Below the pieces are notes generated by a model, which worked only from the letters and a program-made list of their open reading frames with translations, did no database searches and was not told the DNA's origin. From a virus, in the IMG/VR virus record IMGVR_UViG_3300047490_000073, positions 1 through 25,701 of that record: a stretch of 25,701 bases of DNA; one strand, written 5' to 3'. Both the position numbers and the translations under genes were made by a program. Of this stretch, positions 3,987-23,083 are shown piece after piece. Positions within the stretch are counted from its first letter, which is position 1. The number at the start of each line of letters is the position of its first letter.

Positions 3987-6900
3987 TAATTCCTCTCCCT
4001 TGCTGTGTAGGTATCACGGGAGTAATAATCAAGGATAGCCCTGAATACAGCCCTGTTTGCTTCTTTCAAAATTGGGTCTCCAACCTGTAACTGATTAATT
4101 AAAGCATTGATATCTTGTTTTATATCTCTCTTAAGTTGAGAGAAGTTACTCATTTCCCTCTTAGAAGGGTCATTAGCGGTAGAAACAAACTGCCTTACCC
4201 TTGATGCAACCATAGCCATTCTCTGTCTAGTACCTGCATCTAAGTTAAATTTATTATCAATAATGATTTGCTCTATGCTATCTAACATTGCCAACTCACT
4301 ACCTACTTCATTACCGCCACCAGTTAATGCTGGTTCTAATAATGGATTCTTGGCCTTAAGGGCATTTCTTTGTAGGGTAGATGACTTAATAATCGCTCTA
4401 CGAGCCATAGTATCACCAGATGTAGCAAGGAATTCTTTTTCTTCTCTGGCTATATCGTAGTAAGCCTGCTTATCTTTAGATACTAATACATCTCTGTAGT
4501 AATTCTCTAATGATTTATTAGCAATTAAACCAGCACCTTCTAGCCAAGCATAGGTACCAATATCAAAGTCACCAGTATTAGGAGCAAATACAAAGGCTGC
4601 TTCGCCATAAGCCTTAATCTTATCTTCGTTTTCTATAGCCCAGTTCTTTAATTCTTTAGTCTTATTAATAATTACATTAGTCTGTTTCTCATCACGAGAG
4701 ACTGTATATATTAATTTACCTGGGTTCTTACCTACATATGTAGCAACTGCTAACTCATATGGGTCTTGAATATCACCTTTATACTTCTGAGTTACTGCAT
4801 TTAGAATATCAAAGAACTCTGGACGTAATCCAGTTATACCTACCTCTTTAAGATAGTCAGGTACTCCAATAGACTCTTGCATTGATGGAGCAACTGGAGA
4901 TATTAAACCTAGGATAGAACGCATAACTATAATGTTATGTGCTGATAAACGAATATTCTTTAGGTAATCAGCCTTCTCTTGAGGAGAAGCAGATGGGTCT
5001 AGCATATAACCTTGAGATGCATTGTATGCAATAGCCTGCATTGCTGCAGTAGCCTCTTGTCTGCTTTTCTCATTTTGAGGTAATATGTTCCATAACTTCT
5101 GTAAAGAAGATGGAACTATAGCCCTTACTACATCAATATTATCGCCTATTTCACCAAGGGCAAAGTTATCTATTTCTTGTCCAAGTTTCTTACCACCTGC
5201 ACCACCTACTCGGCCTAGAATATTTTTCATAGCAATAACGCTTAATGCACCAAGTGGACCTGACAATGTAGGCAAACCTGCATCTGGAGTAAATGATGGG
5301 TTAGCCAACTTTAACTTCATAGTAAAGTCATTGAATATAGGTTGCTTAAATCCTGCTTCACCTGGAGTTAATGTTCTAACAACGTTGTCTACTGTCTTAA
5401 ATATAACATCATCTAGTGGCATCATTACATATGGGTCACCATTTTGGTCCTCATATATACCACCAGCAGCATCTAAACCTATATGGGCTAGTCGTGTTCT
5501 ATATAAAACTCGTGGAGTTACATCCTTCATACGAAGAATACGGCGCCAAAAATCTTCAGTAGCACGATAGTATCTACCTACATTTCGTGCAGATACTGCA
5601 AAGTTAGAACGAATAGTAGGGTTATCAACAAACTTTAATACTTCATCTGCAGCCTGTTGAATAGATACTTCAGTAAAGTATTTATTAGATTGAAGTCTTG
5701 CTAACTCTTCTTCTTGTATTCTGTTAAATGTTTTACCAGCCTCATAGGCTTCTGCTTCTGCATTATCTAGAAGTTTTTTCGTATAATCTTTCTCTGCTTG
5801 AGAATAGAACTTGCGAAGTTTTAGATAGGTAACCATAACTGCAGGTTGACGAATAATACCTGTAACCTGACGGTCCATAATTTCCATTGCTTTGTTTCCA
5901 AAGCGTCTATATAAATTACCAAAATCATCTAGTCCCTCTATAGCAAGGGAGGTATACATCTTACCTGCTGGCTGGAAACCTTTAGTTAGTTCTGAAAACT
6001 CATCAAAAGTAATAGCCTTAGCAGCCTGTCTCCAAGCACCTGCAACAAACTCTGTGCCACCCTTAGTTATCTCACTATGTTTTGCTTTAATAACATCAAC
6101 TAATGCTTGGTTATATTTATTGGCATCGCCATGGAAATATCTATAAGTATCAACTAAAATTTGCTCTACTAAGTCACGGGCTATATCTACATCATCTTTA
6201 CCCTGTGAACGTAGGGTATTAGTATAACCTCTACTTTGTAGGAAACTATCTAAAGCCTTTTTGTCTCTTACGCTAAATAGGAACTTACCACTTAGTTCAT
6301 CTAAAGTTTGCTGGGTAACATCATCGTATACACCCTCAACGTTACGCTCAATACCTACCTTGGACAGTAACTCATTACGAGCACGGTTCCAATCATTGGT
6401 ATCTCTTAATGCATTATTCTTTAAAAATACTGTGGCTGGATTAAAGTTATAGGTTTGAGCATCACCAAAAATACTCTTACGGTTTCCATAAAAACGCTTT
6501 ATAAAGTTTTCAAAGTGGATAACACTGACACCCATACCGTTAAGTATGTTATCTCTTACTAATTCAGAAACAACAACTTCTTTACCCTTTAAACCTTTTT
6601 CAATCTTAAAAGTTTCCTGAAGATACTTAATTAAGTTATCAAACTGGTTCATATCCAAGAACTCTTCGGCTACTTCTGGAGCCTGTCTACCAGTAATATT
6701 AGATGCGCTACTGATAGAGCGAGTTGCTGAACCTAAGTATTGAGAGTTTAAAGCAAGGGCTTGAATTAAGAAATCTGCTTCTTCATCAGATAGTTTACTC
6801 AAAAGATTATTGTTATAAATATCTGTAGCGGCTAAAGCCTGAGCCATTCTGCGTTGCTCTGAGGTTAACTCACCAACATTCTCTATACCATTATCAGCAG

Positions 6901-15750: not shown

Positions 15751-15790
15751 GGGATTTTCCCCTGCGCCGAGTGCTGGGGGAAAAGTCCCC
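15751..15790 (+). promoter_or_regulatory. Leader with mutually exclusive hairpins before first early gene
   Basis: TTTTCCCC (15755-15762) can pair with GGGGAAAA (15777-15784) as one 8-bp stem. The same bases can instead form two local hairpins, GGG/CCC (15751-15753 with 15759-15762) and GGGG/CCCC (15777-15780 with 15787-15790). The segment ends 6 bases before the AAAGGAG ribosome site (15797-15803) of the first rightward gene. The competing pairings resemble an attenuator or translational switch; no ligand is implied. Confidence 0.4.
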
Positions 15791-20548: not shown

Positions 20549-20991
20549 GATATGTAGAAGTAGATGGTGCTGAACCAACAGTATCTATTGAAGTAAATGG
20601 TAACAATTACGTATTTACGCACGACTCTTTAGTAAATACTATTAATAAAGACGAAGCATATAAAATAGAAATAAAAGAACTAGAGCGCAAAATGCTTAGC
20701 CTTAAGTATGATGTAAGAGAGTTCTTTCAATCTAGATATGAAACAGACCATCCAGAAATCGTAGCCGAAGTAGATGATGTCAATCAACTACTAAAAGATA
20801 TAGGCATTGATGAACTAACTAAGTCATGGTCAGCAACAGTAAGTATCACAGCCACAGTTACAGGTATAGAAGCACCTAATGCAGATGCAGCCAGAGAGAT
20901 TATTGAAGATGCATTTGAAATTAACCTGACAGTTGATGGCGATGTATGGGTAGACGACCTTACTGTAGAGTCGTGTTATCCTGAAGCCTGA
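20545..20991 (+). CDS. Acidic protein of unknown function (148 aa)
   Basis: A 148-residue acidic protein. The start at ATG 20545 overlaps the preceding stop (ATGA) and has GGGAGA about 5 bases upstream; an upstream GTG in the same frame has no such support. It has an N-terminal beta part (MRYVEVDGAEPTVSIEVNGN), a charged helix (about 42-65), and a C-terminal alternating strand/helix part (WSATVSITATVTGIEAPNAD, then REIIEDAFEINLTVDGDVWVDDL). The C-terminal segment recalls small alpha/beta phage domains. No family assigned. Confidence 0.55.
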   Translation: MRYVEVDGAEPTVSIEVNGNNYVFTHDSLVNTINKDEAYKIEIKELERKMLSLKYDVREFFQSRYETDHPEIVAEVDDVNQLLKDIGIDELTKSWSATVSITATVTGIEAPNADAAREIIEDAFEINLTVDGDVWVDDLTVESCYPEA

Positions 20992-21008
20992 TGTGATATA
21001 CTAATCTT

Positions 21009-21061
21009 GAGCAGCCCTGGTTTCGGCTATCTCCTTTCTCAGGGCTGACTCATAAAGGAGA
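21009..21061 (+). promoter_or_regulatory. Pseudoknot leader sequestering the exonuclease ribosome site
   Basis: Stem 1 is CAGCCCTG (21012-21019) with CAGGGCTG (21040-21047), extended by GAG/CTC (21009-21011 with 21049-21051) past one bulged A. Its 20-base loop contains TCTCCTTT (21030-21037). This is the exact 8-base complement of AAAGGAGA (21054-21061), the ribosome site of the gene starting at 21064. Pairing of loop and ribosome site gives an H-type pseudoknot that would block translation, as in preQ1-type riboswitches or the T4 gene 32 type of autoregulation. The geometry is seen; the function is inferred. Confidence 0.6.
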
Positions 21062-21063
21062 AC

Positions 21064-21843
21064 ATGGCAAGAGTAGAGATAGATAGAGATAGATATGGTA
21101 GACCACTAGTAGTTCCACCATCAGGTGGTAAGCCAGTTGCTTATACCAGAGCAACTACAATTGCTAATTCATTAGATGATGCCTCAGCATTAACCGCTTG
21201 GAAAATGCGGATGGCAGCAATTGGATTAACTACACGTCCAGATATACTTCTATCAATTACAGCAGCACAAGAAGATAAGATGGCAGTTAACTCTTTGATT
21301 GAAGATGCTATGGAAGTAGCAGGTGCAAACAAAGCAGCCAATATAGGAACAGCCATACATTCATTTGCTGAACGATTAGACTTAGGTCAAGACTTAGGTA
21401 TAGTCCCACCGCAATGGGCACCAGATATTATTGCTTATGAAAAAACAACTAAGATTCTCAACAAGAAATTCATAGAACAGTTTAGTGTGTTAGATAAATA
21501 CAAGATTGCTGGCACACCAGACAGAGTTGTTGAGTATAACGGTGAGTTATTTATTGCAGATATTAAGACAGGTCGAATAGACCATCCTAATAACATAGCA
21601 ATACAGTTGGCTATATACGCCAACGGCTTGCCGTATGATAGTGCAACGGCAACCCGTGGCACATGGGGAAATGTAAACAAAGACAAGGCAATCATTATCC
21701 ATCTACCTGCAGGAACAGGCACATGTAAGTTAATGTGGATAGATATTAAAGAAGGTCTTAAAGGTTTACAATTTGCTATGAAAGTAAGAAAATGGCGAGA
21801 CCAAAAAGGTCTAGCCTATCCGTTCGAACAGGAGAACAAATAG
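21064..21843 (+). CDS. PD-(D/E)XK exonuclease, Cas4/RecB type
   Basis: A 259-residue nuclease. Motifs in order: GTAIHSFAE (His99 area), GTPDRVVEYNG with Asp153, FIADIKTG with Asp166 and Lys168 (the D-x-K catalytic signature), and QLAIYANG with Gln181 and Tyr185 (RecB motif QxxxY). This is the lambda-exo/Cas4/RecB-like core expected to resect DNA ends or process replication intermediates. No Cas4-type cysteine cluster is visible, so iron-sulfur binding is unlikely. AAAGGAG precedes the ATG by 3 bases, a tight spacing, and lies within the pseudoknot leader. The neighbours (DUF932, helicase, resolvase) support a replication-recombination role. Confidence 0.85.
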   Translation: MARVEIDRDRYGRPLVVPPSGGKPVAYTRATTIANSLDDASALTAWKMRMAAIGLTTRPDILLSITAAQEDKMAVNSLIEDAMEVAGANKAANIGTAIHSFAERLDLGQDLGIVPPQWAPDIIAYEKTTKILNKKFIEQFSVLDKYKIAGTPDRVVEYNGELFIADIKTGRIDHPNNIAIQLAIYANGLPYDSATATRGTWGNVNKDKAIIIHLPAGTGTCKLMWIDIKEGLKGLQFAMKVRKWRDQKGLAYPFEQENK

Positions 21844-22271
21844 TGTCTCACACAGAAGCACCAATCAGCATCACAATCAAGACAGCAGCAGGTAGTTTAG
21901 TAACAGTCCGTGCAAGTGACGGAACAGAACTAGATAGCATAGTTGCTCAAGGATTAGATGCAATTACATCAGCCACAATGGAACTTGAAAAAGCAATTCG
22001 TGGCACAATACCTACACCTATGACAGTAGGACAAGTTGCATCAGCACTAGGCGCCAGTATCAGTCCAATAGATAATTCAACTACTACGCTTGGTGGACGC
22101 AATTGTCCACATGGAAAGATGACAGCAATACAAGGAACAGGTAAAGATGGTTCAATGTATCGTGGTTATTTCTGCCCAGCACCTAAAGGTTCATTTGATA
22201 AATGTAAAAATGTTTATCTAAAGACAACTGATTCAGCATGGAACACATTCGTTCCAGACCAGGTCAAGTGA
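21843..22271 (+). CDS. Phage protein with C-terminal zinc ribbon
   Basis: A 142-residue protein. I choose GTG at 21843, which overlaps the preceding stop by one base and has GGAG 8 bases upstream. An ATG at 21792 in the same frame would overlap the exonuclease gene and lacks a ribosome site. The N-terminal half is a beta segment (ISITIKTAAGSLVTVRASDG) plus a helix. The C-terminal half has NCPHGKMTAIQGTG, YRGYFCPAPKGSFDKCK, a C..H...C...C pattern typical of a zinc ribbon that I recall in actinophage early proteins. It is probably a DNA-binding accessory of the replication module; function unknown. Confidence 0.6.
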   Translation: MSHTEAPISITIKTAAGSLVTVRASDGTELDSIVAQGLDAITSATMELEKAIRGTIPTPMTVGQVASALGASISPIDNSTTTLGGRNCPHGKMTAIQGTGKDGSMYRGYFCPAPKGSFDKCKNVYLKTTDSAWNTFVPDQVK

Positions 22272-23083
22272 AAACACTTAGACGCTCAATTAAAAAAGCC
22301 GAGGTGGGGGGCGAACCATTGCCCCCTGCCTTTCAGGCATTTGAAAGAGCAGGAATTATATTACGTAGAGCAGAGGTAACAGTTATAGCAGGCACTCCAG
22401 GTGCAGGTAAATCCTCAATTGCACTAGCAATTGCAGCCAGAACTAAACTACCAACGCTTTACTTCAGCGCAGATACTAATGCTCATACTATGGCTATGCG
22501 TTTAATTGCAATGGCAGGTAATATGAGTCAGCAGATGGCTGAGAATTTACTAAAGAAAGACCCAGACAAGGCAAACGAAATACTATTATTAAACAATCAT
22601 TTGTTCTGGTCTTTTGAATCTACACCTACACTTAAAGATTTAGATGAAGAAGTATCTGCATTCGAAACAGTATGGGGCAGAAGCCCAACACTTATAGTTG
22701 TAGATAACTTGATGGACATAGCAATGGATGGACACGAAGAATTCCAAGGTATGCGTGCAGCAATGAAAGAACTAAAGTATTTGGCAAGGGATACCAATGC
22801 TGCAGTTTTAGTTCTGCACCATACCAAGGAAGGATTTGAAAACTATCCATGCCAGCCACGGTCAGCAGTTCAAGGTTTAGTTAACCAAATACCAGCAATG
22901 GTATTAACTATTGGGCAGATGAAACAGGGAGATGATAACTTTTTGTGTGTAGCCCCAGTTAAGAATCGTTATGGCAAGGCTGACCAAACAGGAAACAACT
23001 ATGTAACTCTTTCATTTAATCCAGAGTCTATGCATCTAGATGATGTTATGATTCGTTACCTACAACAACAGGAGTTAGGATGA
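22268..23083 (+). CDS. DnaB/RecA-type ATPase, probable replicative helicase
   Basis: A RecA-fold motor of 271 residues from GTG 22268, which overlaps the preceding stop (GTGA). An ATG at 22238 would add 10 residues but has no ribosome site. Motifs (from GTG): Walker A GTPGAGKSS at about 42-50, YFSADTNAHTMAMRLIAMA (DnaB-like helix after the S-D-N motif), Walker B TLIVVDN at about 141-147, LVLHHTKEG (H-motif), and a late VKNRYGKADQTGNN segment like the DnaB arginine-finger region. It lacks the DnaB N-terminal domain, as do several phage helicases. It lies two genes upstream of the primase, fitting a replisome pair. Confidence 0.82.
   Translation: MKTLRRSIKKAEVGGEPLPPAFQAFERAGIILRRAEVTVIAGTPGAGKSSIALAIAARTKLPTLYFSADTNAHTMAMRLIAMAGNMSQQMAENLLKKDPDKANEILLLNNHLFWSFESTPTLKDLDEEVSAFETVWGRSPTLIVVDNLMDIAMDGHEEFQGMRAAMKELKYLARDTNAAVLVLHHTKEGFENYPCQPRSAVQGLVNQIPAMVLTIGQMKQGDDNFLCVAPVKNRYGKADQTGNNYVTLSFNPESMHLDDVMIRYLQQQELG

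Follow-up and report, generated by a model that had tools for sequence, protein, structure and literature searches.

A leader element with loop to Shine-Dalgarno complementarity at the head of a replication/recombination operon in relatives of Planktophila phages E7 and F5

The leader and its operon

The window, by which we mean the whole 25,701-nucleotide stretch of viral DNA analyzed here, carries an operon with the gene order exonuclease, gp49-like gene, DnaB-like ATPase, RusA-like resolvase, and primase genes, in which the genes 3' of the exonuclease abut or overlap one another. The start of the gp49-like gene is placed at GTG 21844, abutting the exonuclease stop (21841-21844); the open reading frame list has ATG 21792. 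The same genome contains an SSB-like gene and a sigma factor. The leader of the operon and its first genes are made up as follows.

20994..21002, + strand: extended -10 element TG-A-TATACT (TG at 20994-20995, TATACT at 20997-21002), assigned from sequence
21009..21011, + strand: 5' strand of outer S1, GAG, pairing with CTC at 21049-21051; GAG/CTC covaries to GGG/CCC in homologues
21012..21020, + strand: 5' strand of inner S1, CAGCCCTG plus G; covariation across homologues
21021..21029, + strand: loop 1, UUUCGGCUA; nearly invariant in the phage group of the window
21030..21037, + strand: 5' strand of S2, the loop anti-Shine-Dalgarno UCUCCUUU; exact complement of 21054-21061, pairing kept with some compensatory change
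21039..21047, + strand: 3' strand of inner S1, T plus CAGGGCTG; from sequence and covariation
21048..21053, + strand: loop 3 of the pseudoknot state, ACUCAU, including bulged A21048 and the outer S1 CTC (21049-21051)
21054..21061, + strand: Shine-Dalgarno sequence AAAGGAGA, also the 3' strand of S2; from sequence and pair counts
21064..21843, + strand: PD-(D/E)XK (Cas4/RecB-like) exonuclease, first gene of the operon (phrog_466, E 4e-63; Pfam PDDEXK_1)
21844..22271, + strand: L5/D29 gp49-like gene (Pfam Phage_gp49, 5.6e-5, below the curated cut-off)
22238..23083, + strand: DnaB-like helicase/ATPase of the same operon (phrog_243, 6e-74)

A preliminary description of this DNA had proposed a hairpin whose loop exactly complements the Shine-Dalgarno (SD) sequence of its own gene, and the sequence at 21009-21061 bears this out. 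Hairpin S1 presents the loop sequence TCTCCTTT (21030-21037), which is the exact reverse complement of the SD AAAGGAGA (21054-21061), and the latter ends 2 nt 5' of the exonuclease ATG (21064). The core of S1 is formed by CAGCCCTG (21012-21019) and CAGGGCTG (21040-21047) together with a G-U pair (21020/21039), and the stem is prolonged beyond bulged A21048 by GAG/CTC (21009-21011/21049-21051). The leader in full reads TGATATACT-AATCTT-GAG CAGCCCTGG UUUCGGCUA UCUCCUUU C UCAGGGCUG A CUC AU AAAGGAGA AC AUG. As the upstream open reading frame ends at 20991, the leader is noncoding, and its conservation therefore does not have protein constraint as its cause.

The position of the extended -10 element predicts a transcript start at about 21009, the first base of S1. 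Among the leaders scored, TGNTANNNT ends 6 to 8 nt 5' of S1 in 120 of 191, an arrangement that would place S1 at or beside the mRNA 5' end. A consensus scan returned no sigma-70 -35/-10 pair, and no intrinsic terminator of the upstream gene, a GC hairpin with a T run after it, was found at the leader.

The arrangement of hairpin, loop:SD complementarity, and start codon exceeds chance. A scan for this combination gave a single match in the window and a single match in the whole 39-kb genome of phage E7, compared with 10 matches per 2.6 Mb, none of this strength, in shuffled sequence. When 7.4 Mb of phage DNA (both strands of fetched loci) was scanned in a similar way, 92 of the 100 distinct matches had an exonuclease-leader loop. 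The nested fold energy is unremarkable (z -0.08, with 84 of 200 shuffles equally good), a value that is uninformative on a pseudoknot because nested folding cannot score one. Searching 85,000 prokaryote genomes with the exact loop pattern yielded 96 stretches from unrelated phyla, none with a visible stem enclosing the loop, and these were set aside as chance matches.

Conservation and covariation among homologous leaders

A first scan yielded 80 viral contigs with exonucleases 86 to 100% identical to that of the window, and the element is present in all 78 of those in which upstream sequence was read. In these 78 the loop UUU(C/U)GGCUAUCUCCUUUC is near-invariant while the stem changes; in L454 this loop is enclosed by a stem of completely different sequence, GAACAGTCCGT/ACGGACTGTTC. 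Targeted scans of relatives 59 to 81% identical revealed further groups with other stems and loops:

loop UUUUGAUUAGUCUCCUUU, with SD AAGGAGAC
loop UUUUGGCUCUCUCCUUGU
loop UUUCGGCUCUCUCCUUGU, with ACAAGGAGA
loop UUUGAUCUCCUUU
loop UUUUAGUCAUUUU, pairing with GACUAA adjoining the SD

The last kind of pairing is exemplified by L398, in which the loop TTAGTC faces GACTAA next to the SD. Among homologous leaders S1 reaches 17 to 18 bp and lies 0 to 9 nt from the SD. Loop 1 begins with GUUU in most exonuclease-type leaders and not in the E7 type, and it is nearly deleted in L549; the anti-SD core stays across groups.

Altogether, 192 distinct leaders were looked at and 173 were retained as being of this type. 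Those not retained have the leader 5' of an inserted open reading frame (L355, L496), were misassigned by the finder (L518, L399, L400), hold a different pseudoknot (the L441 group and L415), or show nothing similar (L467, L318, L319, L385). The cultured Mycobacterium, Streptomyces, and Propionibacterium homologues that were checked have no leader of this kind, and in them the exonuclease overlaps or closely adjoins the upstream gene.

The L441 group, with exonucleases 77 to 80% identical, instead has a compact pseudoknot of a different design, which lies close to the predicted start of the mRNA and leaves the SD unused. It reads GATGG-GTG-GTCCCG-CCATC-TGCGAACA-CGGGAC and lies about 70 to 20 nt 5' of the exonuclease start (1989). 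The same type is found in L444, L446, L449, L452, L458, L462, L466, L474, and L415, with compensatory changes from GGTCCCG/CGGGAC to GGCCCCG/CGGGGC (L466) and from GATGG/CCATC to GTTGG/CTAAC (L415); compared with Rfam, it gave no convincing match. A separate peculiarity concerns the subgroup of L059, L093, L098, and their relatives (AAAGGAGACCATCATAGAAATA), in which ATG, GTG, and TTG are all missing from the usual place and the exonuclease would have ATC or ATA as its start.

To assess covariation, 43 distinct sequences were aligned without gaps on common anchors (alignment A7). Because MAFFT misaligned the SD when given unspliced leaders, pairs were counted on segments that had been anchored and spliced, a procedure that excludes five leaders lacking CTCC in the loop. 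In each of the eight S1 pairs tested, both positions change, and 97.7% of the S1 cells are paired. For the structure as a whole, 88.1% of cells are paired, against 67.6% in shuffled data and 46 to 56% with slid partners, and the covariation score of 0.584 (versus 0.18) was reached in none of 500 shuffles. The S1 arms comprise 44 distinct pairs, 95.5% canonical compared with 61% after shuffling. Mapped on a tree built from 169 exonuclease coding sequences, the S1 pairs show 80 compensatory events on branches and 11 breaks, whereas slid partners give 3 to 10 compensatory events and 38 to 71 breaks; where groups differ in S1 length, a single indel may be counted as several changes, for true and slid partners alike.

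The evidence for S2 is weaker than that for S1. Taken alone, S2 scores 0.142 versus 0.080 (reached in 0 of 500 shuffles), and 4 of its 10 pairs show two-sided changes: a change from U-A to G-C at columns 17-30, which never breaks and is confined to one clade (nuc2/E7), and others at 10-37, 18-29, and 19-28. Pairing of TCTCC with GGAGA is maintained through U-G variants, and between clades S2 takes the forms UCUCCUUU/AAAGGAGA, GUCUCCUU/AAGGAGAC, and CUCCUGUC/GACAGGAG. When each loop was tested against its own and other SD sequences, conservation and not coevolution was seen within the large groups, and the claim made for S2 is therefore limited; S2 is mostly conserved because the ribosome itself constrains the SD. 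Compensatory change at the flanks and between clades thus gives moderate support to S2 pairing. Of the covariation in both stems that the preliminary description had proposed to look for, that in S1 is massive, whereas S2 covaries between clades and is mostly conserved within the main groups. Its proposal of an H-type pseudoknot leader with loop:SD pairing is upheld by this conservation and covariation, and we regard the leader element as confirmed to be real by sequence comparison.

Retention of the leader at the operon head

A blastn search with the operon of the window gave two weak matches, OX376640 and OX376641. These records belong to two phages whose isolation host was Ca. Planktophila LanE-43, namely Planktophila phages E7 and F5 (PMC10202952). 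Compared with the corresponding proteins of the window, their helicase shows 56% and their primase about 50% identity, and relatedness to these and other actinophages is the basis on which a host of the window may be assigned. The first gene of E7 and F5 is a nuclease of another PD-(D/E)XK family, encoded in two overlapping open reading frames, and it is preceded by a leader of the same fold with an S1 of 18 bp. In E7, S2 consists of the 9 bp TCTCCTGTC/GACAGGAGA (in RNA, UCUCCUGUC/GACAGGAGA); in F5, it is CUCCUGUC/GACAGGAG.

The leader lies directly 5' of the E7-type nuclease in L714, L728, and E7-like contigs; in other relatives of this nuclease it stands 5' of a gene inserted at the operon head, and several further S1 sequences occur. 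A UUUUGGCUCUCUCCUU-type leader precedes the second nuclease family in L595, L602, L605, and L623. Reading through L623, the gp49-like and helicase genes that are homologues of those in the window come after the second-family nuclease, so that the gp49-like homologue is retained 3' of the leader. In L355 and L496, a small open reading frame is found between leader and exonuclease (1493-1589 in L355). One inserted frame of this kind would encode a cysteine-rich product of about 31 amino acids, and the leader would control this newcomer first.

As the leader is kept despite nuclease swaps or insertion of an open reading frame, it marks the head of the operon and not one gene. The earlier assignment to a recombination nuclease is accordingly right insofar as the element sits 5' of one, but the element belongs to the head of the exonuclease/gp49-like/helicase operon. 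Its persistence at loci where the following gene has been exchanged or shifted away suggests that operon-head regulation can outlive the gene it controls.

The split PD-(D/E)XK nuclease of E7, F5, and L623 could be a nuclease of two subunits or could contain a site of recoding. The two reading frames lie at 5713-5898 and 5882-6490 in L669 and at 4553-4738 and 4738-5361 in L623.

Proposed function and alternatives

The demonstrated structure, covariation, position, and operon-head retention of the leader are likely, in our judgment, to be best explained by an H-type pseudoknot at the 5' end that acts in cis, masking the SD and thereby repressing translation of the replication/recombination operon. 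The transcript would begin at or beside S1, and the anti-SD of the apical loop would fold back on the SD of the first cistron, creating the pseudoknot and hiding the SD. Translation of the nuclease would thereby be lowered, and that of the following genes may be expected to fall with it through coupling, since no gap separates the exonuclease stop from the next start (21841-21844) and later genes abut or overlap.

In many leaders a complete S1 competes with S2 because the linking nucleotides are too few. In the window, the outer S1 pairs (GAG/CTC) must open for full S2, because the connection to the SD would otherwise be only about 2 nt long. Such competition means that the RNA could exchange between a full hairpin with the SD free and an inner S1 plus S2 with the SD masked, the basis for a switch. 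By a length rule of about 6 Å per nucleotide and pseudoknot energies that, like the steric rule, are approximations, all representatives tested can form the pseudoknot, with estimated gains of about -1.7 to -18.5 kcal/mol before penalty; in L478, where six S1 pairs must open, the gain is small (-3.2). For the window, the estimate is -8.6 kcal/mol before a pseudoknot penalty of roughly 7 to 10 kcal/mol, and its pseudoknot is probably near balance. Two pairings that are conserved and yet compete suggest a switch. More tentatively than the masking itself, one can hypothesize a phage riboregulator of a new class: a two-state 5'-terminal switch, responsive to a phage or host factor, that would set the timing of translation for the operon as a whole. 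Such switches would act in phages that infect freshwater Actinobacteria, Ca. Planktophila among them, and would have outlived replacement of the gene under their control. As a first guess at the trigger, a nucleic acid-binding early phage protein could give feedback, or ribosomes could compete for the site.

Precedents exist for control of this kind. In the rpsO (S15) leader of E. coli, the loop of a hairpin base-pairs with the region where ribosomes bind for the same gene, and two exchanging conformations provide translational control. The phage leader shares this pairing and differs in its sequence and in serving a phage operon, not a ribosomal protein gene, with a 5'-terminal S1 of 11 to 18 bp. 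In the preQ1-I and SAM-II riboswitches, a small H-type pseudoknot masks the SD. A specific link to preQ1, suggested in the preliminary description, is not supported, there being no Rfam preQ1 match at E values up to 10, and neither is the likeness drawn there to the T4 gene 32 operator in its specific form: in T4 the pseudoknot precedes the SD and serves as the nucleation site from which gp32 binds cooperatively along an unstructured UUAAA stretch (PMC535899), whereas here the SD is itself a pseudoknot strand, the first gene encodes a nuclease and not an SSB, and no UUAAA/UAAA repeats like those of gene 32 were seen in the leader. Common to the two is a phage replication/recombination gene that has a pseudoknot in its 5'-terminal leader (PMC535899).

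Rfam searches at gathering and permissive thresholds returned chance matches only. The L31-Coriobacteria leader (RF03128) resembles the element in having a hairpin GCCCUG/CAGGGC shortly 5' of AAGGAG, but the match reaches 16.6 bits (E 0.5) where the gathering score is 33, and the gene downstream is an exonuclease and not L31; we regard the match as chance because the matched S1 sequence changes completely in homologues. No earlier report was found in the literature searched, from which most subscription papers were out of reach, and on both counts the element appears to be undescribed. The leader thus adds a structured, putatively regulatory RNA that is strongly supported by sequence comparison and is represented neither in Rfam nor in that literature. 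Its carriers are phages of bacteria that rank among the most abundant in fresh water, and its two members in cultured phages (Planktophila phages E7 and F5; PMC10202952) make its role directly testable.

Among other explanations, a translational repressor could read the stem and the conserved loop of the hairpin as an operator, with loop:SD complementarity being secondary. We consider this possible, if rather doubtful: loop 1 (UUUCGGCUA) is nearly invariant in the window group though SD pairing does not need it, S1 varies in sequence with its pairing kept, as is typical of recognition of shape plus loop, and the operon is an early one in a genome with an SSB-like gene and a sigma factor; but loop 1 differs between groups and is nearly lost in L549 while the anti-SD core stays, and in the E7 clade the anti-SD tracks the SD. 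A role of S1 as a 5'-terminal hairpin stabilizing the mRNA against 5' decay, with the anti-SD merely fine-tuning translation, strikes us as unlikely, for it leaves the loop:SD complementarity conserved over all groups unexplained, even if S1 is at the predicted 5' end and in the L441 group a related exonuclease is preceded by another pseudoknot, close to the predicted 5' end, in which the SD takes no part.

A metabolite-sensing riboswitch of preQ1-I or SAM-II architecture would account for the H-type fold with the SD as an S2 strand and for strong loop conservation within groups. It is nevertheless quite improbable, as Rfam gives no match, the element occurs in the collections searched at one phage operon only and not at metabolic genes, and loop 1, unlike an expected aptamer core, is not conserved between groups. 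Least probable by far is that the loop mimics the 16S rRNA 3' end and acts in trans. The loop CUCCUUUCU presumably matches the actinobacterial anti-SD tail, and its sequence identity in the window group would fit; the E7 type (CUCCUGUC) and the L398 type (UUAGUC), however, depart from 16S and still complement their own downstream strand.

Elsewhere in the window, a long hairpin, GGGATTTTCCCC ... GGGGGAAAAGTCCC, occupies 15751-15790, 5' of the OB-fold/SSB-like gene (start 15812), and strong hairpins of variable sequence likewise lie 5' of its homologues and, in related phages, of more distant SSB-like genes.
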